DNA of 33,567 nucleotides from Planctomycetes bacterium GWF2_41_51. Lineage in GTDB: Bacteria; Planctomycetota; Phycisphaerae; Sedimentisphaerales; UBA12454. The stretch spans positions 1 to 33,567 of the forward strand of contig MHXZ01000113.1 in NCBI GenBank assembly GCA_001825665.1. Direction: 5' to 3'. A model generated the notes under the pieces. It had not been told where the DNA came from, made no database searches, and worked only from the letters and a program-made list of their open reading frames with translations. Positions 5,197 to 33,399 of the stretch are shown here, in pieces. Every line of letters starts with the position of its first letter. Position 1 is the stretch's first letter. The position numbers and the translations under genes are program-made.

Positions 5197-5212
5197 ATTT
5201 ATTTTCCCCATG

Positions 5213-5238
5213 TGTCATTCCCGCGTAAGCGGGAATCC
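5213..5238. repeat. Dispersed palindromic repeat (tgtcattcccgcgtaagcgg)
   Basis: An 8-bp stem (attcccgc / gcgggaat, 5217-5224 and 5229-5236) with a gtaa loop inside tgtcattcccgc...gcgggaatcca. This is a well-known type of dispersed intergenic palindrome found in many bacteria. It lies between two minus-strand genes and may act as a weak transcript processing or attenuation hairpin. Confidence 0.7.
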
Positions 5239-5240
5239 AT

Positions 5241-5963
5241 TTATCTTTTTAATATTTCCACTAATCTTTCCATTGCTATCTTTGCATCTCCAATCGGTTC
5301 CCCAAAAAATGTTCCATCCGCAAGCCGATTCCAGTTCGGCGAACCTTCGCCGTCGCGATTGACAATTATATGCATATAGTTTTTAGCGCTCGCAATTTCC
5401 AGCACCGAATCATCAATTCTTTTTTTAACATCCTGCAAAAACTCAGAGTCAACATTCCTTTTATGATATGCGATTCTTTGATATTGCTTATCCGCCATCA
5501 AAGATTTAATAAAAAGCTCCGCGACTATTCCCGTTGAACGGACAAATTCAATTTCTTCATTACTGATTGGCGAAACAAAAACAGTTTCAATCTTTATATT
5601 TCTAAGCCGTTTAGCCGCAAGCAGCCTCGGCACAATCGGATAATACATCTCCATCAAAATCGTCTGCTCAGGATAATTGACAATCAAATCAAGATTCACC
5701 GCCTGGCTGAACCCAAAACATTTCCCGATAACATAATGGTCATTCCCTTCCAGCCCCGCGATTTCCTCTTCCGTTCTCCAGCAGTCAGGATTATCCCAGA
5801 CCGTATGTTCATCAGGCCGCGGAATATGATTCCTCGAATGTTTGCTTTTGATTACCGACAATTTTGTAAATTTCACATCAGGCCTAAAATGCTTCACCGC
5901 CGCAGTCAGCGGCCCTTTGCCTACGCAACTCGGCCCCGATAATAATATCAATCGCTTTCCCAT
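5241..5963 (-). CDS. P-loop NTPase, guanylate kinase-like
   Basis: A 240-aa protein starting MGKRLILLSGPSCVGKGPL, a Walker A loop of the nucleotide-kinase type (G10-x4-G15-K16). Guanylate kinases usually read GPSGVGKGT here; this protein has Cys at the fourth position and Pro at the position of the Thr. The middle part (HSRNHIPRPDEHTVWDN; RTEEEIAGLEGNDHYVIGKCFGF) resembles the GMP-binding region of guanylate kinase-like proteins, but the true substrate is unknown. ATG 5963 has aggaaataa upstream. Its 5' end overlaps a long open frame on the other strand, which is why the sulfatase start is placed further right. It probably forms a transcript with the glutamine amidotransferase gene. Confidence 0.75.
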   Translation of the reverse strand: MGKRLILLSGPSCVGKGPLTAAVKHFRPDVKFTKLSVIKSKHSRNHIPRPDEHTVWDNPDCWRTEEEIAGLEGNDHYVIGKCFGFSQAVNLDLIVNYPEQTILMEMYYPIVPRLLAAKRLRNIKIETVFVSPISNEEIEFVRSTGIVAELFIKSLMADKQYQRIAYHKRNVDSEFLQDVKKRIDDSVLEIASAKNYMHIIVNRDGEGSPNWNRLADGTFFGEPIGDAKIAMERLVEILKR

Positions 5964-6030
5964 TTATTTCCTGTTGGTATTTCAATGTATATCTTGCTTT
6001 ATACCTGTTATGCAAGTATATTTCTATTTT

Positions 6031-8007
6031 ATGGATAACCCGTCAAGCAAAATCTCGCCATACAAAAGTTTTTTTGCTTTTATTACCGCCCGCTCGGCAG
6101 GCATCATTGTCGCCGCCGCACTTTTCTGCACTTTATCTGCAAAGCTCTATTGGGCTTTCCACATCAACCAACTTCGCAACTGGCCGGATTGGATAATCGC
6201 TGACATTTTCGTTTTCTCTTTCTCCGAAATGTTTATTGCACTTGTCTATTATTTCTGGCACAAAAAAACCGCCGTAAGACTAATGCTCCTTTTCGCCGCT
6301 TCGATTTGCACATGGTCTGTCCTGAACGCCGGCTGGCTCATCGCAACTGGCACACAAGCCCTCCCCGCCGTCATTGCCCCGCTCTTCTATGACCCACTCG
6401 GCAGATTCAGCATCGTCGGCCATCATCTCGCCGAAAGGCCAATCGCCGCTTTCGCACTCCTCGGCCCAAGCGCAGTGGCACTCGCGTTTTTCTTCTACGT
6501 CATCGCAAAACCAGTCGTGCCCCAGATAGAAAAAAAACATATTCGCGCCAGAATGATTTTCTACGCCTCCTTTTTCTTTATAGCCTCGATATTTGCCATC
6601 TTCATCGGAGACAAAAAAACTCCCGCTCTCGCCGAACTCCGCTACAACAGCCAGCTCAAAGCAGTCAAATCATTATTTTATCGAAACCCATCGAGAAGAA
6701 ATATTGCCGAATTTTCAGATTCAAACGAAATGCCATTTGCCGCATTGAAGCCCATTACGCTCGAACACAAAAAATATGCCGGAAAATATAACATCGTACT
6801 CGTCGTGCTCGAAGGAGTTTCTCCGCTGCAAACTAATTTCTGCGATGGCAGCGCCGATGTCCCGTTCCTCAAAAAACTCGCTAAAAATGGCGTCAATTTC
6901 ACCAACTGCCATACCGTCGCGACGCACACCACAAAAGCCCTCTTCGCAATACACACCGGAATCTATCCATCCGTCAGCCAGGACTACATCGAAGCCGCCG
7001 TCGCACCAGCCCCCTGCCGCAGCATCGTAACAACACTGAAAGATTCCGCGAATTACAAAACTGCCTTTTTCCAATCCGCCAAAGGTTCATTCGAAGCTCG
7101 CCCCGGCCTCGTCCACAATCTCGGTTTCGATAAATTTTTCGCACGCGACGACATCACCGATTCAAATACTTACCTTGGCTATCTCGCCGCCGATGAATTC
7201 GCCCTCATCCCTCCAATTGAAGATTGGATTAAGAATTCCGATCAGCCGTTTTTCCTGACCGTACTTTGCTCTGCGACACACGACCCTTATGAAATCCCCG
7301 AACATTACATTGACAATGAAATAAACAACGACAGCAAACCTCTCCAGCGATACAGCCGTTTGCTTGAATATACTGATTCGTTTATAGAAGAACTTTATAA
7401 AAAAATCATTTCACACGTTGACAAAGACGATTTAATTTTTTGCGTCGTCGGCGACCATGGCGAAGCCTTCGGCCAGCACTCGCGCTTCGGCCACGCACGT
7501 ATCCCTTATGAAGAAGCGATGAAAGTTTTTTGGATTATGTCAGGCGACAAAATTAAACGCGGCAAAAAAATAGATTTGCCCGTCAGCAATCTCGATGTAA
7601 CCCCGACGATTCTTTCGATGCTCGGCTTCGACATCTCAGATGCTTCGTTTGACGGCCTAAATATTTTGCAGAAAAAAACAAATGAACGAAAAATTTATTT
7701 TTCAACATGGATGTCCAACGGCCCTGCCGGTTTTGTTACCGATAACCGTAAAATTATTTACGACCCGACAAATCAGCAGATTATTGAATACGATTTATCA
7801 ACAGACCCGCTTGAGCAAAATGGCTTGTTTTTACAGCCGAAAAAATCAGAATCCGCCGCAAAGAATGTCGAATTGATAAACGCCTGGCAGTCCCGCAATT
7901 TCCATATCTTCCATAAAGACGACACGGAAAAATACCAGCGTATTTTCGATAATTGGCTCTGCCAAACCGCCACCCGTGAACCCCGCGCCATCTTCGATAA
8001 ACAATAA
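6031..8007 (+). CDS. Membrane sulfatase-fold enzyme (LTA synthase/phosphoglycerol transferase type)
   Basis: A 658-aa protein with about five N-terminal transmembrane helices (residues 15-200) and a periplasmic alkaline-phosphatase-superfamily domain. The metal-site motifs of the LtaS-like group are visible: NIVLVVLEGVSP with E261, ATHTTKALF with the predicted nucleophile T300/T301, VVGDHGEAFGQH with the Asp-His metal pair, and a later RFGHARIPYEEAM His. Such enzymes transfer phosphoglycerol, phosphoethanolamine or similar groups at the outer face of the membrane, or cleave sulfate esters. A planctomycete would not be expected to have lipoteichoic acid, so the substrate is open. The start is uncertain: ATG 6031 is used; ATG 6010 is possible and longer versions would run into the P-loop gene. 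Confidence 0.8.
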   Translation: MDNPSSKISPYKSFFAFITARSAGIIVAAALFCTLSAKLYWAFHINQLRNWPDWIIADIFVFSFSEMFIALVYYFWHKKTAVRLMLLFAASICTWSVLNAGWLIATGTQALPAVIAPLFYDPLGRFSIVGHHLAERPIAAFALLGPSAVALAFFFYVIAKPVVPQIEKKHIRARMIFYASFFFIASIFAIFIGDKKTPALAELRYNSQLKAVKSLFYRNPSRRNIAEFSDSNEMPFAALKPITLEHKKYAGKYNIVLVVLEGVSPLQTNFCDGSADVPFLKKLAKNGVNFTNCHTVATHTTKALFAIHTGIYPSVSQDYIEAAVAPAPCRSIVTTLKDSANYKTAFFQSAKGSFEARPGLVHNLGFDKFFARDDITDSNTYLGYLAADEFALIPPIEDWIKNSDQPFFLTVLCSATHDPYEIPEHYIDNEINNDSKPLQRYSRLLEYTDSFIEELYKKIISHVDKDDLIFCVVGDHGEAFGQHSRFGHARIPYEEAMKVFWIMSGDKIKRGKKIDLPVSNLDVTPTILSMLGFDISDASFDGLNILQKKTNERKIYFSTWMSNGPAGFVTDNRKIIYDPTNQQIIEYDLSTDPLEQNGLFLQPKKSESAAKNVELINAWQSRNFHIFHKDDTEKYQRIFDNWLCQTATREPRAIFDKQ

Positions 8008-8064: not shown

Positions 8065-8649
8065 CTATTTCAAACCAAATGATGTAACCTTAATTTTTAC
8101 TTCATCGGATTTGAATGCGTCGCTTTCTTCTTTTGGCAAAGTCCTGCTTTTACTTAGTGCTATTTCATGGTGAGGCTCGAGTAATTTTATTTCATTTATC
8201 CAGTCGTTCCTGCAATCTATCATTTCACCATTTTTGAAATATTCAAAATTAAGTTTCAAATTGCTTATTGCGTTTTCAGAATCATTTTTCAATATGAAAA
8301 TTATTTTTTCATGGTTCTGCCATTCAGTTGGTACTAATTTTATTCCTGAGATGCTCAATTTTTCTTTAACTGCCGCAAACATTTTATCTTCATCATCTTT
8401 TTCAGGTTCAGTGGATTTAAAACCTGCTGAAAATCCGGCTCGAAATTGTTTACTGATTTCCTCTGCGAATTGCTGTATTGCTTTTGTTTTCTCAGCATCT
8501 GAAGCGCCGTCTTGAATTATGCTGTTGAGTTCCTGATAAGCTCCCCTGATTTCACTTGCCAGTTTAGGTTTCATTGTAGCTCTGAAAACAAACAGCGCCG
8601 CAATAGCAATAATAGTTATTACGATTGGACTATTAATAATTTTCCACAT
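8065..8649 (-). CDS. Membrane-anchored protein of unknown function
   Basis: A 194-aa protein with one N-terminal transmembrane helix (about residues 8-23), a charged helical stretch (EIRGAYQELNSIIQDGASDAE and after) and a C-terminal beta-rich part with extracytoplasmic character. The start at 8649 (MWKIINSPIV) is chosen because aaggag lies 9 nt upstream; an in-frame ATG at 8670 overlaps that site. It is the last gene of a minus-strand series with the three-Cys protein (44 bp gap) and TcmP-like protein. I do not recognise a family; the C-terminal portion could be a small Ig-like or FxLYD-like domain, which is a weak guess. Confidence 0.65.
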   Translation of the reverse strand: MWKIINSPIVITIIAIAALFVFRATMKPKLASEIRGAYQELNSIIQDGASDAEKTKAIQQFAEEISKQFRAGFSAGFKSTEPEKDDEDKMFAAVKEKLSISGIKLVPTEWQNHEKIIFILKNDSENAISNLKLNFEYFKNGEMIDCRNDWINEIKLLEPHHEIALSKSRTLPKEESDAFKSDEVKIKVTSFGLK

Positions 8650-23414: not shown

Positions 23415-26400
23415 CTAATATTTAAACCAATGTTCTGCGAAAATTCCAAAATCTCTAAAATTTATTATTTCATCTTTATAAAGATCCTGCGGCATGTTGA
23501 GACCCGTTAGCAGCCAATTTTGTCCCAACACCCGCAGATCACTAATATCAATTATATTATTGAGCGTAAAATCTGCTTCGCGCTGCGATGAAATTTTCAG
23601 ATCTATATCATTTATGTCAATGTCATAAAGCCGGTTAATTCTTACAATAAAACTATCATCACTTACAGCTTGCTGTCCTGCTGGAATTGATTTGAAAAAT
23701 ATCTTATCGTTCATCATTTCAACTTCCCCATAGCCACAGGAAAGCTGGACAGTTATATTACTAACATCATAACCTGTCATATTTTTCAGCTTCATTTTAA
23801 AACAATATTCAAACTCAGTTCTTGATATTCTTTTTTGCAAAACAAGCTCATAGCCTGTGCAGCTTAAATATTCCTGGCCTGCTCTATTGGCGACAGGTTT
23901 GGCTATATTGTCCGATTTAATTAAAATCGGGTCAGCATAAATTGATGAACCAAACTGGTCATAGCACTTGATCGTCCAGTATGTATTTTTATATGGAAAG
24001 GCATCCATAGTTTTTTCAATTGGCTGACCCGATTCACAAATTTTATAAATCATACTGTATTTATCCGGCCCCATAAGCAATTCATATTTGACGGCATTTT
24101 CACAAGGCAAACAACCAAGAACAGCATACTCTTCGCCAATATCGCTGCCGTCTGGGATACCGGTCAACTGAACTGGTGCAAGAATTTTGCCAGGATATGA
24201 AGTCTGGTTATAAAAAACAATATTCTCACTTGAATCAATTTTGAAAAAATATTTGTTCGCCTGGGTATTCAACTGAAAATTTTTACCTTCGCCGATAACA
24301 GACAAATAAGCGAAAGCATCCAAACCATTATTTTGATAATTGAAACTTGAAGACATATATTTTGAAACAGGATAAGAATGTGAACGCTTAGGCTGACATG
24401 TTATATTCAAAGTATTTGAAATAATCGCGGCAATACTATAAGAAGTATCATTGCTTATATAATTATCCACCCAGCATTGCTCACCGGCCACACGATTGGA
24501 ATAATATTGGCTGACTCTGCTCGAAAGATTATTACAAACTGCATCGAGCAGTGAAACACGATTTACAACATATCGTGGGTCTTTGTAATACATGTTCAAA
24601 TACCATGCTACTTCCATTGCCGGTTTGTTGCCGGTGCTGTAGCCGGTGGTTTGAATCGCCTCTTTATAATTCGGGGCAATTTCAGATAATAAAACAAGCA
24701 GCATATCGCCGTATTTCGTGTAAGGCGTACCATAGGAACTTACCGTAATCCAATTTACCTTTTGAGACCAGGTGCCGCCAAAAGACAGTGAGCCTCCCGT
24801 TGTACAGTTTCCTCCGCCAAAAGCCAAAATAGTTGGCTTTTCCGGGTCAAATGGCGGATTGGAAATAACTAATTGCTGCGTCGTATAATTCGGGACGATT
24901 ACTACATTGACATCGTCCGGCTGGCTTTCTTTTAACCCATCAGATACGACAAGTTCAAATTTACAATATTGCCGGCTGCTGTTGGGAACAAATCCGCTTA
25001 TTAAAGGTTCGGCCGTATCCGCACCTGTTATCTGAAGCGTAGGACCAGCAATCTGTCGCCACTGGTACGTCAGATCCCCGTAACCATCTCGGTCGTAGGA
25101 ACTTCTGCCGTCGAGCAACACAGGCGATGTTAAAGCATATCTTGCTGCGCCTGCATCCGCCACCGGCGCTCGATTACAACCAATTATTATTCCAACTTCA
25201 TCCGCTTTGCTTGCAATTACGCCGTCATCAATGATTAAACTGAAAACATAAAGGCCTTTTTGCTTTGGCACAAAAGTCGGCTGACTAATATCGTTATGGT
25301 CGAGTTCAATTTTCGGGCCGCGTATCTGATGCCATTTATAATATATTGCGTCGCCGAGCGGATCATAAGAAGCCGAGCCGTCAAGATTGACAACCGCAGG
25401 CAATTCTTCAAAAGCCTGATCCACACCAGCATCAGCCATTGGCGCTACATTTCCGGGATATTCATAAGCTCCGATATCTACTCGTCCTGCTTCCACACGA
25501 TTATTACCTGAAATATCTTTCTCATTTTCTTCGATTAAATAATTCGGATTACCTGCATTTCTACATGGCGAGGATACCTGCAGATGAAAATTTGCATCAT
25601 TTGTAAAAACAGGGTCAACCGAAATATTACCATTAATGCCGGTCTGGTTTTCTATTCCGACATAATCATTAATCGCATTTCCCCATACATTATTATAAGT
25701 AAATGTGCTGTTACTGCTCCAAAAATAACTAACACCGGAATAATTCAGCCCCTGAGCAATAATATTATTTGAAATAAACACATTGCTGCAATACATAAGA
25801 GAAAAGTTCGACACCGTCTGAACAGCAGAATTCCGAACAATAGTATTGCCGATTACAATTGAATCATTTGCATTTCTAAGTAGAACACCGCCGCATGATG
25901 CCGCATTTGCAATATTGTCGGAAACAATATTATTTTTGAATTCTGTTTTAGCCCAGAGATAAACAGCACCGCCAATATTCGCGAGATTTTGTTTGAATAT
26001 ATTATTTTTAATAATGGTGGATGCAGTGCTATAAATTGCGCCGCCACTGCCGCTATTTGCGGAATTTGCTAAAAGTTTATTACCAGAAATTATCAATGGT
26101 CCCTGGTTGCACCATATACCCCCGCCTTCGCCTGTAATGTGGTTTGCAGTGATAATATTGTTACTGATAGTCGGAGTTGACAGATTACAACAAATTCCTC
26201 CGCCCGCTATTTTTGAAGTGCCGACTCTTGTTCCAGTTCCACCCGTAATAGTGAACCCTTTTATAACCGCGTTTTGTGTTTCGCCGTTTGCAAAAGTAAC
26301 AACCGAAGCTGCATCGGGATTAGATGGTCTGCTGCCGTCAATAATTGTCGATTCGACTATTGCACCATCAAGCGGATTCTGGCTTGTGAGAGTTAAATCC

Positions 26401-27602
26401 TTGCCGATAAAATTGATATTTTCGTAATATCTGCCAGGCAAAACAACGATAATATCGCCTTCGTTGGCTTCGTTTATTTTTGTCTGAATGCTTTGATCGG
26501 AATTGACATAGTGAATCATATAACCTGAAAATTCATCAGCTCCAATATCTATATAAGTTGATAAAACTCTCGCCTGGCCGTCCATGTCTTTTTCACCGGT
26601 TATAAGATATGAATTTGTACCAGCGTTAATGCACGGCGAATAGGGTTTTAAATGAAAATCATTCACATCCGGATTAACAAGCCTCGGATCCTCGGAAATA
26701 TTGTGGTTAATACCAGTTTGATCCGGCATTTCAAAATAGTCTCCATCAACATTACCCCAGACACAATTGTATTTAAACAAATTTAAATCGCCAGGATTTT
26801 CACAATATACTCCACCCCCTTGGCCGGCAAAACAAATTATATTATTGATGACCATATCATACATTACTGACTCAGCAATAAGATAAAGGTTGCCTGCCGA
26901 GTCGGCTTCATTTTTTACAATGGTATTGTTTGCAAGCACTCCGCCACCCAGCAGGATAACACCTCCGCCAATTATCGCGGAATTATCATAAATCAAATTG
27001 TCGTATATAAGCGGTTTATTATAAATCGTAATCAGTCCACCGGCGACAAGTGAATAATTTTGTTTGATGATGTTATTAATTATTGTCGCATTTGAATATA
27101 GTGTTGCAATTCCCCCGCCATAATGAGTCTGGCCATTATTGGGACAGATGTTATTTGTGATAATATTTAATTTTATTGTAGGAGAGGCATTTTTGCAGAA
27201 AACACCCCCGCCCAAATATAACGTTTGCCCGAGAGATGTATCGAGCGTTCCTGTTCCGCCTGTGATTGTAACTCCCTGTATAACAGCATTTTTCGTTTCA
27301 CTATTTGCGAAAGTTACAGTTGAAGCGGCACTAGAACTTGCAGGCCGATTGCCGTCGATTATGGTTGTTTCGACAATGGCTGAATTATTTGGATCAACAC
27401 TTGTCAGGATTATGTTTTTGCCGTTGAATTTTATGTTTTCAAAATACCTTCCCGGCTGAACGATAATCCTGTCGCCGGAAACCGAAGCGTTAATGGCAGA
27501 TTGAATAGTAGCATATTCTGCGGGAACATTTCGAACTGCGGCATTACAATAAGAAAACACACAACATAAAATAATTATCGCTAATAAAAAGTTTCTTCTC
27601 AT
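23415..27602 (-). CDS. Giant secreted protein: two beta-helices, PKD domains, hydrolase-like domain, dockerin-like tail
   Basis: A protein of about 1,395 aa with signal peptide (MRRNFLLAIIILCCVFSYCNA). Order: two related right-handed parallel beta-helix units (about 22-360 and 362-715; both open with TIQSAINASVSGD- or SIQTKINEANEGD-like text and end in DIGADEF/DIGAYEY); two PKD/REJ-like domains (about 718-806 and 811-905; DAGVDQAFEELPA, DGSASYDP); a region of about 210 residues with TTGYSTGNK (nucleophile-elbow GxSxG, S989), D1020 and H1075, like an alpha/beta hydrolase; and two dockerin-like EF-hand repeats at the end (NIIDISDLRVLGQNW, EIINFRDFGIFAEHW). Probably a surface carbohydrate-binding or degrading protein. 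ATG 27602 (aggag 5 nt before) is preferred; ATG 27620 also has aggag 8 nt before it; the longest frame would start at 27668. Confidence 0.85.
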   Translation of the reverse strand: MRRNFLLAIIILCCVFSYCNAAVRNVPAEYATIQSAINASVSGDRIIVQPGRYFENIKFNGKNIILTSVDPNNSAIVETTIIDGNRPASSSAASTVTFANSETKNAVIQGVTITGGTGTLDTSLGQTLYLGGGVFCKNASPTIKLNIITNNICPNNGQTHYGGGIATLYSNATIINNIIKQNYSLVAGGLITIYNKPLIYDNLIYDNSAIIGGGVILLGGGVLANNTIVKNEADSAGNLYLIAESVMYDMVINNIICFAGQGGGVYCENPGDLNLFKYNCVWGNVDGDYFEMPDQTGINHNISEDPRLVNPDVNDFHLKPYSPCINAGTNSYLITGEKDMDGQARVLSTYIDIGADEFSGYMIHYVNSDQSIQTKINEANEGDIIVVLPGRYYENINFIGKDLTLTSQNPLDGAIVESTIIDGSRPSNPDAASVVTFANGETQNAVIKGFTITGGTGTRVGTSKIAGGGICCNLSTPTISNNIITANHITGEGGGIWCNQGPLIISGNKLLANSANSGSGGAIYSTASTIIKNNIFKQNLANIGGAVYLWAKTEFKNNIVSDNIANAASCGGVLLRNANDSIVIGNTIVRNSAVQTVSNFSLMYCSNVFISNNIIAQGLNYSGVSYFWSSNSTFTYNNVWGNAINDYVGIENQTGINGNISVDPVFTNDANFHLQVSSPCRNAGNPNYLIEENEKDISGNNRVEAGRVDIGAYEYPGNVAPMADAGVDQAFEELPAVVNLDGSASYDPLGDAIYYKWHQIRGPKIELDHNDISQPTFVPKQKGLYVFSLIIDDGVIASKADEVGIIIGCNRAPVADAGAARYALTSPVLLDGRSSYDRDGYGDLTYQWRQIAGPTLQITGADTAEPLISGFVPNSSRQYCKFELVVSDGLKESQPDDVNVVIVPNYTTQQLVISNPPFDPEKPTILAFGGGNCTTGGSLSFGGTWSQKVNWITVSSYGTPYTKYGDMLLVLLSEIAPNYKEAIQTTGYSTGNKPAMEVAWYLNMYYKDPRYVVNRVSLLDAVCNNLSSRVSQYYSNRVAGEQCWVDNYISNDTSYSIAAIISNTLNITCQPKRSHSYPVSKYMSSSFNYQNNGLDAFAYLSVIGEGKNFQLNTQANKYFFKIDSSENIVFYNQTSYPGKILAPVQLTGIPDGSDIGEEYAVLGCLPCENAVKYELLMGPDKYSMIYKICESGQPIEKTMDAFPYKNTYWTIKCYDQFGSSIYADPILIKSDNIAKPVANRAGQEYLSCTGYELVLQKRISRTEFEYCFKMKLKNMTGYDVSNITVQLSCGYGEVEMMNDKIFFKSIPAGQQAVSDDSFIVRINRLYDIDINDIDLKISSQREADFTLNNIIDISDLRVLGQNWLLTGLNMPQDLYKDEIINFRDFGIFAEHWFKY

Positions 27603-27639
27603 ATTCTCTCCTGTAATCATTTTAAATTCTCCTGTAACT

Positions 27640-30330
27640 TTAATTTTCTTTAAGCCAATTTTCGACAAAGACTGCGAAATCTTTAAAATCCACTATGCCG
27701 TCGCCCGCATTCGGGGCAATATCTGCATTATACATTCCCTGCATCAGCCATTGAGACGCAAAATCATATAGCAGGTTTATATCGTCCTGCCAGTTTTGGG
27801 CAAAGTCAGCAAAGTCCCAAAAGTTCACAATGCCGTCGCCGCGGTTTGGCGCAACATCGCAAGATAATTTTTCAAGTTTCCACTGATTTGCAAGAATAGC
27901 ATAATCAACAAAATCAACACCATCAGGACAGGTAAAATCAGCAGATAAAAATTGCCAGCTCAATTTAGGAAAACTAATTCCGTCCTCACACATACGCCAA
28001 ATATCATTTGAGCCGTTTATGGTTTCACAGACAAAATCCCAATTTGCGAAATTTGTTTTCATTTTCATCTGCTGTTCAGACAATGGTTGGCCAAAACCAT
28101 TATTGACGCCAGTGGGCATAAGGAAATAAGAATTAAAGATATATCCTTCGGAAAGCCCTGTGAGTCCGCCAAAGTTGCCTACAGAACCGGCTGCATAACA
28201 ATTAGTAATATTACCATAATTATATCCAGTCAGGCCGCCAATCATGTAATCACCAGTTATAATAAATGTCGAATAAGAATTAGAGATGCTGCTTTTATTG
28301 GATCCACACAGTCCTCCTGCATAAGCCAGGTAAGACGAGCGATTCATAGTTCCTGTTGAAAAACAACTATCGATTATACCATTATTATTGAATCCACACA
28401 ATCCGCCACCGTGATATCCATTTCTTACTGTTATGTCGCAAACCGAATAGCAATGACTTATGTAGCCAGTATCAACGTAACCACAAAGACCGCCGGTGTA
28501 ATTCATCCCACTTACACTGCCAGCCACATAACAATCTGCGATAGTCCCACTATTTTTTCCGCACAAAATACCGGTATTACTTCCATTGATAGAATTCCCG
28601 CCAGTTACACTGCTGGAAGAATAGCAGTTAGTAATACTGCCGGTATTTGCTCCGCACAAACCACCTGCATTGTCATTAGTTCCATTAATGTTAGCAATCG
28701 AATAACAATTTATTATATTTCCAGAATCCGCATATCCAGACAGACCACCAACATAATTCTTTCCACTTACATTACCTTTCACATAGCATTCATAGATACT
28801 GCCTGAATATTTATACCCACACAAGCCGCCAATATAAGCGCCTTTTGAAGAGATATTAATGTTTTCAATTCCTAAGTTTTTGATTAAAGCATTATGGGTG
28901 TAACCAAATAAACCAATATTACTTGTAGATGAGGTTGTAACATAAGTCAGATTATAAATGACATGCCCATCTCCATCAAACACGCCAGAAAATTTAGTAG
29001 TCGAATTACCAATTATTTTATATTTCGTACCTGTAAAGCCTGCCATATTTATATCCGCAACAAGCATGAAATATTTATCCCAGTCCGCAGACATCTGACC
29101 AATTTCATTCATATCCTCGGGGTTAGCGATCAAATACGGGTCTTGCTCTATGCCATGGCCGCCGCTATATTTGATCCCCAATGAAACAACAATATTTACC
29201 TTAGATTCGCTAATTACTAACCTACCAGCTACAGGTGCTTGTTCTATAATACAACCCTTGGTAACGGTTTCGCTGTATGCGTTTGATATCGTTCCTGTGA
29301 AAAGATTAGTATTCGTAATCACTGCAGAGGCATCTGTTAATGTCATTCCTGTGACATTTGGGACAAATACAGTCTGGCAGGCAAATACAAATAAGGGATA
29401 AGTCACACCTTCGTCAATTATCCATATATCATCTACGCCATTTACAGTTTCATTAACAAAATCCCAGCCGGCATTTAAGTAAGTATTTAAATTTTTAGTT
29501 GCCGCGCTGCGGCCAAAACAGCCGGTTATCATACCTCCGGTGCTACCTACAAATTGACCAACACCCGAGCTTCCAGAAGCAGTACCTATAGAATAACAAT
29601 TTGTAATATGCGCACCCGAATAATTAGTACCGACAAATCCACCAACAATATCGGCCGAATTCCAATAATTTCCTGTAACATCTCCAGTCGAATAGCAATT
29701 ATTTATGTTCCCTGTGTTGTGGCCAACCATTCCGCCCAAATTCATTTCGCCTTTGACCTCGGCGTTCGAAAAACATTGAGATATTGTTCCGCTATTAACG
29801 CCGACCAAACCGCCGATGCTGTAACTTCCAGCTACTCTGCCGGTTGAACTGCATTGAAAAATTGTACCTTTGTTTTCACCAGCTATCGCCCCAACGATTC
29901 CGCTCATCATACCTCCATACGGGGATATATGTATATTTACGTTCCTTATTTTGACATTGCAAACTTCTCCTGCTGTTCCAATTGTACCAAACAGTCCAAG
30001 CTGATTGCGGTCGTTAGCTAAATATGTAAGATTGCTGATAAAATGATTCTGTCCGTCAAATGAACCATTAAACGATAAAGACGAATCCCCTGCCATTTTG
30101 TATCTTTTGACATCGTTATATTCGGCAAGATTAATATCAGCTACAACTTTAAAATATGAATTCCAGTCTTCGGAATAAGTTCCGATGGCGTTCATGTCCC
30201 GCGGAGTACCGATTAGATATGGGTCTGTTTCTGTACCGCTGCCGCCTGAATATTTAGCGAATGCGGGTGAAATAAAAAGACAGAGTACAAAATTGATTAA
30301 AAGGTACTTCCTTAAAATTCCTGCAAACAT
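27640..30330 (-). CDS. Secreted GLUG-repeat protein with PASTA domain and dockerin-like tail
   Basis: An 896-aa protein with signal peptide (about residues 1-25). Two similar halves each begin KYSGG-x-G-x4-DPYLI and contain many GLUG units (pattern GGLVG-x3-G-x-I-x-CYS-x-G-x-V-x-G). Between them lies one PASTA domain (about 321-386, VPNVTGMTLTDASAVI to VNIVVSLG), which usually binds peptidoglycan or muropeptides. The C-terminal 100 residues hold three dockerin-like EF-hand repeats: CPDGVDFVDYAILANQW, GDGIVNFWDFADFAQNW, GDGIVDFKDFAVFVENW. Likely an adhesive or cell-wall-associated surface protein. It is the first gene of the surface-protein operon (38 bp before the beta-helix protein) and is divergent from the sigma factor gene. 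ATG 30330 is followed by a typical lipo-free signal sequence. Confidence 0.88.
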   Translation of the reverse strand: MFAGILRKYLLINFVLCLFISPAFAKYSGGSGTETDPYLIGTPRDMNAIGTYSEDWNSYFKVVADINLAEYNDVKRYKMAGDSSLSFNGSFDGQNHFISNLTYLANDRNQLGLFGTIGTAGEVCNVKIRNVNIHISPYGGMMSGIVGAIAGENKGTIFQCSSTGRVAGSYSIGGLVGVNSGTISQCFSNAEVKGEMNLGGMVGHNTGNINNCYSTGDVTGNYWNSADIVGGFVGTNYSGAHITNCYSIGTASGSSGVGQFVGSTGGMITGCFGRSAATKNLNTYLNAGWDFVNETVNGVDDIWIIDEGVTYPLFVFACQTVFVPNVTGMTLTDASAVITNTNLFTGTISNAYSETVTKGCIIEQAPVAGRLVISESKVNIVVSLGIKYSGGHGIEQDPYLIANPEDMNEIGQMSADWDKYFMLVADINMAGFTGTKYKIIGNSTTKFSGVFDGDGHVIYNLTYVTTSSTSNIGLFGYTHNALIKNLGIENINISSKGAYIGGLCGYKYSGSIYECYVKGNVSGKNYVGGLSGYADSGNIINCYSIANINGTNDNAGGLCGANTGSITNCYSSSSVTGGNSINGSNTGILCGKNSGTIADCYVAGSVSGMNYTGGLCGYVDTGYISHCYSVCDITVRNGYHGGGLCGFNNNGIIDSCFSTGTMNRSSYLAYAGGLCGSNKSSISNSYSTFIITGDYMIGGLTGYNYGNITNCYAAGSVGNFGGLTGLSEGYIFNSYFLMPTGVNNGFGQPLSEQQMKMKTNFANWDFVCETINGSNDIWRMCEDGISFPKLSWQFLSADFTCPDGVDFVDYAILANQWKLEKLSCDVAPNRGDGIVNFWDFADFAQNWQDDINLLYDFASQWLMQGMYNADIAPNAGDGIVDFKDFAVFVENWLKEN

Positions 30331-30431
30331 TGTATCTTCAATCCTAAAAATTTATACTCTCATAGCCGTACAACATATAATCACACATTTTGTTCGCACC
30401 CAGCATGTCATTTATTCCTAAGCAAATTAAA

Positions 30432-30511
30432 AAAAGCCAGATTAAAACCTGTGCATATTGGATTTTGGAGGAGGCAAAATCCAATAACATTCGAGTTTAA
30501 CTCCGGCTTTT
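30432..30511. promoter_or_regulatory. Long structured hairpin in the divergent leader region (possible attenuator)
   Basis: An inner perfect 12-bp stem (tattggattttg / caaaatccaata, 30456-30467 and 30475-30486) has the 7-nt loop gaggagg. An outer imperfect stem (30432-30448 with 30495-30511; aaaagcc/ggcttttt core) surrounds it. On the minus strand the outer stem is followed by seven T, like a Rho-independent terminator, about 100 bp before the GLUG gene. On the plus strand the loop reads as a Shine-Dalgarno-like sequence. Confidence 0.6.
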
Positions 30512-30539
30512 AATGCAATAGTCCAATAAATTCGAAAAT

Positions 30540-30597
30540 CTTACGGTTTTTTTTGCAAAAATTATAATTTTTTCAATTTTTTAAAAAAAATTGTAAG
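30540..30597. repeat. Imperfect A/T-rich inverted repeat before the sigma gene
   Basis: cttacggtttttttt pairs with aaaaaaaattgtaag (two G-T pairs), 35 bp before the sigma factor ATG. The A/T tracts could also be a curved promoter region. Confidence 0.4.
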
Positions 30598-30631
30598 AAA
30601 TAAGGCGATTTTGGACTACAATAACGGCTGA

Positions 30632-32590
30632 ATGAAGCCATTGGATGACAACTTAAATACGACGGATGTGGTTAAAAAAGCTCAATTCGGCTGTCATGAC
30701 AGCATGAGCATTCTGACCCAGCAAGTCCAGCAAGGGCTATTGGTGTATATTTATCGCTTGACGCTGAATCATAACACCGCAGAAGACCTTTTGCAGGAAA
30801 CGCTGCTGGAGATGGTTAAGTCGCTCAAAAACTTAAGGCGTCCTGAATGCTTACATGGCTGGTTATACAGAACAGCGCTCGGAAAAGTCCAGCATTACTT
30901 CCGAGACAATCAATACGAAAAAACGATATTACCAATGTCAGCATTTGACAAAGAAAAACTATTGCAGCGAGCATCGGACAGCAATTGTGATGGATTAAAA
31001 AATCTTATCAATGAGGAATTGTCGCAGGCAATAGTTGGCGCTATGGCAAAGCTAAAACTTAGGCACCGAAATATTTTAATCCTGCGATGCTGTGAGAATA
31101 TGCCTTATTCCGAAATTGCCGAAGTTCTGAATTGCAGCCAGTTTGCCGCACAGGTTCTTTTCTTTCGGGCAAAGCAGGCTCTTAAGAAAAAATTATCGAA
31201 ACATGGCTTTGGCAAACCGATTCTTGCCGGGTCGCTGACGCTGTTTGGCATTATGACAAGCTCGGCAAATAATACTGTCGCCGCTGTTTCAGTTTCTTCA
31301 CTCAAAGTCGGTTTTCTTATCACAATCATCGGAGCTATCCTTACAAGACTTGGAATAACCCTACTAACGCTAATTGCCGCAAGCCTGTTCACCGCAGGGA
31401 CAATTCTGCTGAATGCCGAAAAAAACGATCGAGATAAACTGCCTGATAAGTCTGAAATAAAAAGTTTTCATTATGTAATGCAGTCATGGAGCGGAACAGG
31501 AAGTACCAATTCCAATCTGATTCGCGGCCGAAGCCTAAGTAAAGGTGCTTACGAGCAATGGTATTTCTTTCCGCAAGGGATAGATGGGCCTATGTTTATG
31601 ATGATGCAGAGATGGGATCCCAAACAGTTAACCAAACTCTGCGGTTGGTTACAAAACAACAGTGGAAATTATTACTACCATTCGGGTCGAAAAACCATTT
31701 ACTTATACAATTATCATTTACCGCTATCGACCCTTCAAACCCGCCGATTACCTTCCGATTCACCACAGCTAACAGTTTTTCTCGACCAGGTCGAAGGCAA
31801 AATAGAAGGGCTTGATTATGCGCGCGATCCCAAAACAGGCCTTCTTACCGGAGTGCTTGATAACCGTTTTTATAACGCGCAGGATTTCAAAACTAATATT
31901 TCATACAATAACGTCGATGAAAAATCATTTGGCTCTTTTCGTCATACCTGGCCTGACGCACCGGTTGTAGATGAACGCGACGATATCCACAAGCAAGGCT
32001 GGACATATTTTCGAATCATCGGCAATATAAATGGAAATAAAGTACAGGGCTGGGCACAAATTCCTTTCATATACGACACATACCTTCAGCGAAAACCCTG
32101 GCTAAAAATGCAAATAGGTGATCAGGTGGAAATTATCGATTCAGATTCGCAGGCCTATATAACCAGCGAGAAAAATGTGATAGCATCTTATCCGCCTGGC
32201 AGTTTTTTTAAAGGGCTTGCACGACAGTGGTCAGGTATGCATACCATTGATGTTGTCCGCAGAGACGCAGCCGAGAAAAGAATTAAATTCGATCTACGAA
32301 ATTTCGATAATAACAACGAAGGCTACGGCAATGCGGAGATTACATTATACAATCCAACCGATCCATGTCAGGCACAAATCGTTTATACAATCGACATCGA
32401 CAGAGATTTACTCAAAAAAATTGAATTCCCGGCAAGTAAAAATGTGCTCGAATTTCTTTACCCGGATATTGACCAATATAGCCAACAGTTTACAGAACCA
32501 GCTAAAGTTAATACAAGAAAAATCATTCAAAAGGATAGTATTGGAATATTGTGGCTGAAAGAATTATCAAATGGAACTTTGATACAATGA
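30632..32590 (+). CDS. ECF-like sigma factor fused to membrane segment and large ectodomain
   Basis: A 652-aa protein. The N-terminal 190 residues are an ECF sigma factor: region 2 about 36-92 (YIYRLTLNHNTAEDLLQET, HGWLYRTALGKVQHYF) and region 4 about 132-188 (AMAKLKLRHRNILILRCCEN, YSEIAEVLNCSQFAAQVLFFRAKQA). Then two or three transmembrane segments (about 196-212 and 224-262) and a C-terminal region of nearly 390 residues with no known motif, rich in Trp and Tyr and probably outside the cytoplasm. Such long sigma factors occur in planctomycetes; the extension may sense signals and keep the sigma part at the membrane until needed (inference). No separate anti-sigma gene is seen. ATG 30632 lacks a clear ribosome-binding site. 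The stop overlaps the pseudopilin start (ATGA). Confidence 0.9.
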   Translation: MKPLDDNLNTTDVVKKAQFGCHDSMSILTQQVQQGLLVYIYRLTLNHNTAEDLLQETLLEMVKSLKNLRRPECLHGWLYRTALGKVQHYFRDNQYEKTILPMSAFDKEKLLQRASDSNCDGLKNLINEELSQAIVGAMAKLKLRHRNILILRCCENMPYSEIAEVLNCSQFAAQVLFFRAKQALKKKLSKHGFGKPILAGSLTLFGIMTSSANNTVAAVSVSSLKVGFLITIIGAILTRLGITLLTLIAASLFTAGTILLNAEKNDRDKLPDKSEIKSFHYVMQSWSGTGSTNSNLIRGRSLSKGAYEQWYFFPQGIDGPMFMMMQRWDPKQLTKLCGWLQNNSGNYYYHSGRKTIYLYNYHLPLSTLQTRRLPSDSPQLTVFLDQVEGKIEGLDYARDPKTGLLTGVLDNRFYNAQDFKTNISYNNVDEKSFGSFRHTWPDAPVVDERDDIHKQGWTYFRIIGNINGNKVQGWAQIPFIYDTYLQRKPWLKMQIGDQVEIIDSDSQAYITSEKNVIASYPPGSFFKGLARQWSGMHTIDVVRRDAAEKRIKFDLRNFDNNNEGYGNAEITLYNPTDPCQAQIVYTIDIDRDLLKKIEFPASKNVLEFLYPDIDQYSQQFTEPAKVNTRKIIQKDSIGILWLKELSNGTLIQ

Positions 32591-33399
32591 CCGGGCGATC
32601 GAATGATTTCGTAAAAGCCTTCACCTTGATCGAATTGCTTGTTGTTTTATCTCTTATCTCTCTTCTGCTTGCTATCCTGATGCCTGCTTTAAGTATGTCT
32701 CGGTCGCTTGCCCAAAAAATCACCTGCCGCAGTAATCTTCGACAACATCTTTTGGCAAATTTTGACTATGCCCGAGAAAACAACGGCAGTTACGTTCCTG
32801 CGGCATTGGATATTTATACCGAAAAAAAACATCGCTGGTATGGTGTTCGCGATAACATATTCCAGCCGTTCGATTCTGCTAAAGGGCCCCTTGCATCGTA
32901 CTTCGCGCAGGGATGTTTAAAATGTCCGGTAAATATTAGTTTTATTAGACCGGAAACTTCCGATCCTGATTATGACAGCGGTAGCGGCGGTTACGGTTAT
33001 AATATGATATACATCGGCTCAACTATCTGGAGAGACGGTTATGACGATGCATACTGCAAGGAAACCGCTAAATCAACAACTATCCGTCAACCGGCTTTAA
33101 CACTCATGTTTGCCGACACTGCAATGTTAAAAAATAATTCTTATATAGAATATTCTACTGCAGAGCCTCGCTATTTTGTAATTAACGGCGAACCCGCTAT
33201 CGACGCCGGAGGATGGGAACCATCGCCATCCATTCACTTTAGGCATAGAGGCATGGCGAATATCGGCTGGACTGATGGGCACGTGGATTCAAGAAAAATG
33301 GGAAAATGTGACAGCCCAAATAATGACGATACCAAATCATCTGCTATGAATTTAGGCTGGTTTGAGCCAATGGATAATACCTTATTCGATTTAAAATAA
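32587..33399 (+). CDS. Pseudopilin-like protein with H-X9-DG motif
   Basis: A 270-aa protein with a type IV pilin/type II secretion signal: a basic leader (MTGRSNDFVKA), cleavage expected between A11 and F12, FTLIE (E16 at mature position 5), and a hydrophobic helix to about residue 33. The body ends with H220-RGMANIGWT-D230-G231, the H-X9-DG motif of planctomycete/lentisphaere pseudopilins (DUF1559-related). The start at 32587 is preferred because it forms an ATGA overlap with the sigma factor stop; a GTG at 32551 inside the sigma gene is less likely. Each such genome has very many of these proteins and their cargo role is unclear; coupling to a membrane sigma factor is the noteworthy point. 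Confidence 0.9.
   Translation: MTGRSNDFVKAFTLIELLVVLSLISLLLAILMPALSMSRSLAQKITCRSNLRQHLLANFDYARENNGSYVPAALDIYTEKKHRWYGVRDNIFQPFDSAKGPLASYFAQGCLKCPVNISFIRPETSDPDYDSGSGGYGYNMIYIGSTIWRDGYDDAYCKETAKSTTIRQPALTLMFADTAMLKNNSYIEYSTAEPRYFVINGEPAIDAGGWEPSPSIHFRHRGMANIGWTDGHVDSRKMGKCDSPNNDDTKSSAMNLGWFEPMDNTLFDLK

Follow-up and report, generated by a model that had tools for sequence, protein, structure and literature searches.

A putative tethered ECF sigma factor with a predicted LolA/RseB-like domain and its H-X9-DG pseudopilin partner in the planctomycete order Sedimentisphaerales

The stretch of DNA that we have analysed, referred to here as the window, comprises the whole of contig C113 (33,567 nucleotides) of a 4.83-Mb planctomycete genome (G000). 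Close to one end of the window, the gene of an ECF sigma factor that is fused to a predicted membrane segment and to a large C-terminal domain is directly followed by the gene of a pseudopilin, while two genes for large surface proteins are read in the opposite direction from the other side of a 301-bp intergenic region (30331-30631); the features of the locus are listed in Table 1.

Table 1. Features of the sigma-pseudopilin locus and of the divergent operon, with positions counted in the window.
Feature	Position	Strand	Basis
ECF sigma factor - TM - ectodomain fusion, 652 aa, ATG start	30632..32590	+	domain searches, model, homologues
Sigma region 2	30719..30913	+	Pfam PF04542, residues 30-94
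Sigma region 4	31025..31183	+	Pfam PF08281, residues 132-184
Post-sigma4 helix, near-invariant, LxLFGKxTAPSEAA	31214..31273	+	conservation in 66 relatives, model
Likeliest single transmembrane segment, residues 243-262	31358..31417	+	hydrophobicity over 66 relatives
Ectodomain, predicted LolA/RseB/MucB-like fold, residues 273-652 (best-matched part 366-635)	31448..32587	+	AlphaFold2, Foldseek, VIA
H-X9-DG pseudopilin, 270 aa	32587..33399	+	N_methyl motif, direct reading
H-X9-DG motif (HRGMANIGWTDG)	33244..33279	+	direct reading
Putative ECF-type promoter GTAAG-N15-GGACTA, 13 nt before sigma ATG	30593..30618	+	exact match; conserved in G001, G106
Second GTAAG-N15-GGACTA, reading into the divergent surface-protein operon	30519..30544	-	exact match; conserved in G001
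Divergent secreted GLUG/PASTA protein, 896 aa, likely target	27640..30330	-	Pfam Glug 1.4e-30, PASTA
Beta-helix/PKD surface protein, 1417 aa, likely in the same operon as the 896-aa gene	23415..27668	-	Pfam Beta_helix, PKD
Terminator-like leader hairpin, start of divergent transcript	30432..30511	-	MFE -30.2 kcal/mol, z -6.7

The 652-residue protein carries sigma regions 2 and 4 without a region 3, as is expected of an ECF sigma factor: the matches to Sigma70_r2 (E 5e-9) and Sigma70_r4_2 (E 6e-9) both lie above the Pfam cut-offs, TIGR02937 (sigma70-ECF) lies over the NCBIfam cut-off, and the sigma part resembles SigW in fold (VIA Z 17.5, 156 aligned residues, rmsd 2.7). Region 4 is followed by a hydrophobic stretch (about residues 195-262). 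The AlphaFold2 model has a helix at residues 195-209, and L202, F205, G206, T209 and A214 are conserved among 66 relatives; we only suggest that this helix could act as an intramolecular clamp. No Pfam zinc-finger match has been found in the C-terminal extension at E values up to 1.

The initial annotation described transmembrane segments behind the sigma part; the hydrophobic region is indeed found there, but the plural is the less likely reading, as the last segment (about residues 243-262) alone is consistently the most hydrophobic across the 66 relatives on a crude index. A Lys or Arg residue stands ahead of this segment in most of the family. A consistently strong last segment with basic residues ahead of it makes one transmembrane helix more likely than several, as judged from the sequences, and favours a position of the C-terminal domain outside the membrane, to which it would have to be exported. 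In an alternative topology, with an even number of membrane passes such as a hairpin, the sigma part would still be tethered, while the C-terminal domain would be cytoplasmic or membrane-peripheral and would sense an intracellular state, the pilin being merely a target. This topology could draw on the second hydrophobic stretch that adjoins the last segment in the window protein, on the weak hydrophobicity of class B (introduced below) and, on the crude scale, of the transmembrane segment in many relatives, and on the low confidence of the model in this region (pLDDT <50 at residues 216-267); we consider it unlikely, given the consistent strength of the last segment alone, the Lys and Arg residues, which fit the positive-inside rule with the domain outside, and the extracytoplasmic location of the LolA, RseB and MucB folds.

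An ectodomain of nearly 390 residues had been annotated; the corresponding domain of approximately 380 residues matches no Pfam or NCBIfam family, and its profile has given no relevant match among PDB sequences. In AlphaFold2 models built on the alignment of the 66 relatives it is confidently folded and not disordered, with pLDDT 88.4 and pTM 0.89 for the domain modelled alone and a mean pLDDT of 82.5 for the whole protein. Queried with the domain model, Foldseek returns LolA (E 3.4e-5, probability 1.00), MucB (8.9e-4) and RseB (2e-3), while most of the top-50 rows of VIA are LolA, LolB, RseB, MucB, LprG or the related EPDR fold, at Z values of up to 8.2 over 130-160 residues and 4-6 angstrom, where the tool rates Z 7-8 as middling. 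Both the whole-protein model and the independent domain model show the LolA/RseB-like fold; the predicted ectodomain is modelled as a LolA-type half-barrel but has no sequence-family match, and it can be assigned to the LolA/RseB/MucB superfamily by its modelled fold, an assignment that concerns structure and not function. RseB and MucB are periplasmic regulators of sigma-E and AlgU, respectively; this biology, together with the consistency of the match list, points to an analogy with the regulation of these two sigma factors.

Of 148 related genomes, 83 encode homologues of the C-terminal domain, with up to eight per genome; the relatives traced by name are Planctomycetota, for the most part MAGs of Phycisphaerae and Sedimentisphaerales. 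In a phylum-wide draw, the ectodomain family has been found in three of 294 genomes, all of them from the same order, Sedimentisphaerales. The open reading frame at 30632-32590 encodes a probable tethered-ECF protein of a known general kind, in a variant that is new and restricted to one order.

The downstream gene does encode the H-X9-DG pseudopilin that had been annotated, a type IV pilin-like protein with the N-terminal motif of prepilins (N_methyl PF07963, E 1.2e-4, over the cut-off; also TIGR02532) and a C-terminal motif that literally reads H-(RGMANIGWT)-DG. The annotated ATGA overlap also exists in the sequence (pilin ATG at 32587, sigma TGA at 32588-32590), but it is not the sole option for the start of the pilin: a GTG at 32551, which would extend the overlap to 40 nt and the pilin to 282 residues, is equally plausible, and in the sister genome G001 the pilin has the -40 start only; the -40 start codon is largely forced by an invariant Trp of the sigma factor. 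There are 65 pilin-like matches to the pseudopilin in its own genome, nearly all of them limited to the N-terminal motif. An expansion of N_methyl pilins, 41 or more per genome and often flanked by signal-peptide genes, has been reported in Planctomycetes (PMC8567305), and the pseudopilin of the window belongs to such an expansion; unlike the expansion in general, its subfamily is locked to a dedicated sigma factor or to a cobalamin riboswitch operon. Our literature search has found no paper on H-X9-DG pilins in Planctomycetes.

We have read the gene order in about 110 loci. The eight closest sigma factors, which we refer to as class A (the window; L037 to L041, L043 and L044), group as a single clade in a quick tree (SH-aLRT 95), for which one gain of the pair suffices, and a pilin of one subfamily is located directly behind the sigma gene in all eight, with the two genes overlapping in six. 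The pair, whose recurrence in other genomes the initial annotation had proposed as a check, is thereby found in eight genomes from four families of Sedimentisphaerales (Planctomycetota); the surroundings vary between these genomes, the surface-protein neighbours doing so beyond the genus, and it is the sigma-pilin pair alone that is conserved, not the neighbouring surface proteins. The pilin motif occurs in two of 119 background genes, and with 8/8 clade members set against this background, the pair is a real cassette, far beyond chance. An adjacency arising as a by-product of a pilin-rich genome, without a functional link, would be in keeping with the 65 matches in G000, but it is hardly credible in view of the same comparison, of the overlapping reading frames and of the same pilin subfamily each time. 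As a separate observation, a pilin from outside the close subfamily of the window follows the sigma-ectodomain gene directly in L088, L090 and L102, possibly as independent pairings; the pilins of L088 and L090 are on long branches, while that of L102 falls within the class B pilins, and the records of L088 and L090 are titled Actinomycetes MAGs but hold proteins of the planctomycete family, perhaps as mis-labelled bins.

In class B, the sigma gene is followed by the gene of a secreted protein of 500-1800 residues and then by a pilin of a separate clade. The pilin motif is found at the second downstream position in 19 of 63 cases, against the same two of 119 background genes, and the secreted proteins in class B and similar positions have beta-helix matches in 26 and LamG matches in 11 of 41 cases. 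Such three-gene cassettes (sigma-ectodomain, large beta-helix/LamG surface protein, pilin) exist as multiple paralogues per genome, at L092, L099, L106, L112, L115, L116, L117 and L120, among others, and further at L128, L131, L138, L143, L146, L153 and L154; subtype-specific promoter boxes accompany them (CGTTAC-N16-GGCACTT; CGTCAA-N15-TGAACTT).

On the divergent side of the window locus, large surface proteins are encoded, as had been annotated, i.e. the GLUG/PASTA and beta-helix/PKD proteins, the gene of the latter overlapping that of the former by 29 nt (first TTG start). A search for a shared promoter motif in front of the operon at 30.3 kb had also been proposed, and it has yielded GTAAG-N15-GGACTA, which has exactly two mismatch-free copies in the 4.83-Mb genome, both of them in the 301-bp intergenic region. 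The pattern was read off the same data in which it is counted, and our own chance estimate is approximately two exact matches per genome and 1e-4 in 301 bp; with two chance matches per genome to be expected, the weight rests on the co-location of the copies and on their recurrence. The same divergent pair of motifs is present in G001, though the divergent gene there encodes an unrelated GEVED-domain protein, and G106 has a copy before its sigma gene. By its position, uniqueness and recurrence, the motif strongly supports the prediction that the sigma factor drives both its own operon and the divergent one.

Within the family as a whole, a -35-like box lies ahead of 69 of 87 sigma genes and of 83 of 656 other genes, counts for which the patterns were chosen on the same data and the sequences are related; ECF promoters known from elsewhere are consistent with the AAC...CGT form (PMC8103513). 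At class B loci, second copies of the sigma factor's own promoter are not in excess (11 matches versus 11.7 expected); in this class, the surface protein is already inside the sigma operon. It could also be proposed that the inverted motif pair is an operator pair of another regulator, the regulon of the sigma factor lying elsewhere, as the motif is not a textbook AAC/CGT promoter in the subclade of the window and its role has been read from sequence only; this is quite improbable beside the two-box layout with its constant N15 spacing and an A-tract ahead, the distance of 13 nt from the sigma ATG in both G000 and G001, the ECF-like GTAAC-N16-CGTCTA that relatives carry at the same place, and a distribution of the motif that follows the subtype of the sigma factor and not the species.

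The only other exact copy in G001 is located upstream of the gene of a 396-residue secreted protein of no assigned family (G001:C118:1587-2834, L215), a likely member of the regulon in trans. Homologues of this protein follow the sigma factor in L080 (directly, 41% identity) and L046, and another one, in L083/L048, carries the promoter GTAAC-N16-CGTCTt, one base from the class C sigma promoter GTAAC-N16-CGTCTA; the contig does not extend far enough to include the promoter of the sigma gene of L083/L048. Upstream of the G106 homologue there is no exact motif. The leader hairpin of the divergent transcript, which has the loop CCUCCUC and a similar counterpart at the same place in G001, has no credible Rfam match and is possibly an attenuator.

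The closest paralogues of the pseudopilin (51% identity, same genome) are located in a different operon, which encodes a DUF4465 protein (PEP-CTERM in the copy of this genome), a protein of approximately 340 residues without a Pfam match, and the pilin; in L190, next come the genes of a FecCD permease and of a periplasmic binding protein. A cobalamin riboswitch lies near the operon start in six of seven scanned DUF4465-type loci, and none has been found in the 33,567-nt window. The riboswitch operon of G000 is on contig C47 (L183; riboswitch 8156-8347, genes 5204-7826), and others are present at L184, L187, L189, L190 and L192; a short secreted protein can take the place of the DUF4465 protein, which is likely to be B12-binding. 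DUF4465 domains bind vitamin B12 (PMC13398666), and the composition of these operons hints at a system for pilin-linked uptake of vitamin B12 in Planctomycetota. With paralogues under riboswitch control, the subfamily of the window pilin serves at least two regulons, that of the riboswitch and that of the tethered sigma factor. The common thread, a pilin encoded beside secreted surface proteins, fits the report on N_methyl pilins (PMC8567305), and pilins of this kind look, from their gene contexts, like dedicated partners of secreted surface proteins.

These observations can be joined into one mechanism, which we regard as probable: the locus would be an obligate cassette of an H-X9-DG pilin and a tethered ECF sigma factor with an RseB/LolA-like domain of its own. 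One transmembrane helix would hold the sigma part at the inner membrane, and the LolA/RseB-like domain would be periplasmic; to judge from its fold, this domain may bind a lipid, an envelope component or a pilin-type ligand that reports the state of the envelope or surface. Binding would lead to regulated intramembrane proteolysis that releases the sigma part, as happens with IutY; the freed sigma factor would recognise GTAAG-N15-GGACTA and start transcription of the operon that encodes it and the pilin, and of the divergent operon for the surface proteins. The pseudopilin, processed by prepilin peptidase, may help to export or display the surface proteins that are regulated together with it. 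The parts that such a mechanism needs exist, as the genome encodes M50 site-2-type proteases, several T2SSF proteins and a prepilin peptidase. Of the surface-sensing and expression circuit that had been envisaged in the initial annotation, self-contained expression is well supported by the two matching predicted promoters that lie in the divergent region and by the recurrence of this arrangement in G001, while surface sensing, proteolytic release and the export of the ectodomain are steps that we infer.

The pilin may instead be the input, with the LolA/RseB-like domain acting, in a feedback loop, as a chaperone-sensor for the assembly state of the partner pseudopilin. The pilin is the sole gene that always accompanies the class A sigma clade, and the overlap in six of eight cases suggests a fixed ratio; against this, related pilins occur in riboswitch operons without any such sigma factor and class B sigma factors pair with a different pilin clade, and we assign this feedback loop a low probability.

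The cassette that we propose can be compared with several known systems. IutY of Pseudomonas putida belongs to a FecR-type iron-starvation system. In this ECF243 protein, a sigma factor is fused to a membrane anti-sigma factor and is freed by Prc and RseP (PMC8999054); the window protein likewise has an ECF sigma factor, a predicted transmembrane helix and a predicted periplasmic signalling domain on one polypeptide, and its proteolytic activation is proposed by analogy, but its ectodomain is LolA/RseB-like and its partner is a pseudopilin. The ECF48, ECF52 and ECF53 proteins of Actinobacteria (e.g. SCO4117) have C-terminal extensions of up to approximately 400 residues (PMC8999054), with one or two transmembrane helices and an extracytoplasmic domain; the window protein is predicted to have a comparable extension. 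Theirs contains a zinc-finger anti-sigma domain, and that of SCO4117 a carbohydrate-binding domain, whereas neither a zinc finger nor a known Pfam domain has been found in the extension of the window protein. C-terminal extensions, WD40 among them, have been described for planctomycete ECF factors (PMC8567305 and references), and the fusion of a large domain behind sigma region 4 is typical of the phylum; unlike the ECF-WD40 factors, the ectodomain family of the window is confined to Sedimentisphaerales and tied to pilin and surface genes.

The RseA-RseB-sigmaE and MucA-MucB-AlgU systems also join a sigma factor at the membrane to a LolA-fold regulator, periplasmic in their case, and RseB and MucB are the fold matches of the window ectodomain. 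Sigma factor, anti-sigma factor and RseB are three proteins in RseA-RseB-sigmaE, whereas the window protein is one chain without a recognisable anti-sigma domain. It is conceivable, and we put it forward tentatively, at somewhat short of even odds, that the whole sigma-E/RseA/RseB relay is contained in this chain, with a LolA-fold sensor of lipid or pilin wired to a sigma factor, an insulated private promoter, and a matched pseudopilin and large surface protein as its output, there being one promoter subtype per paralogue and up to eight paralogues per genome.

Planctomycetes have dozens of sigma factors whose C-terminal extensions are unexplained, along with dozens of orphan pseudopilins, and in the literature that we have searched, no function is assigned to the combination of a sigma extension with a pseudopilin. 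The locus described here is a compact, testable unit, with a proposed one-protein relay that has an RseB/LolA-like sensor, a predicted private promoter found at just two genomic sites, and defined targets; its paralogues, each with a private promoter, would provide a natural collection of sigma-promoter pairs that are possibly orthogonal.
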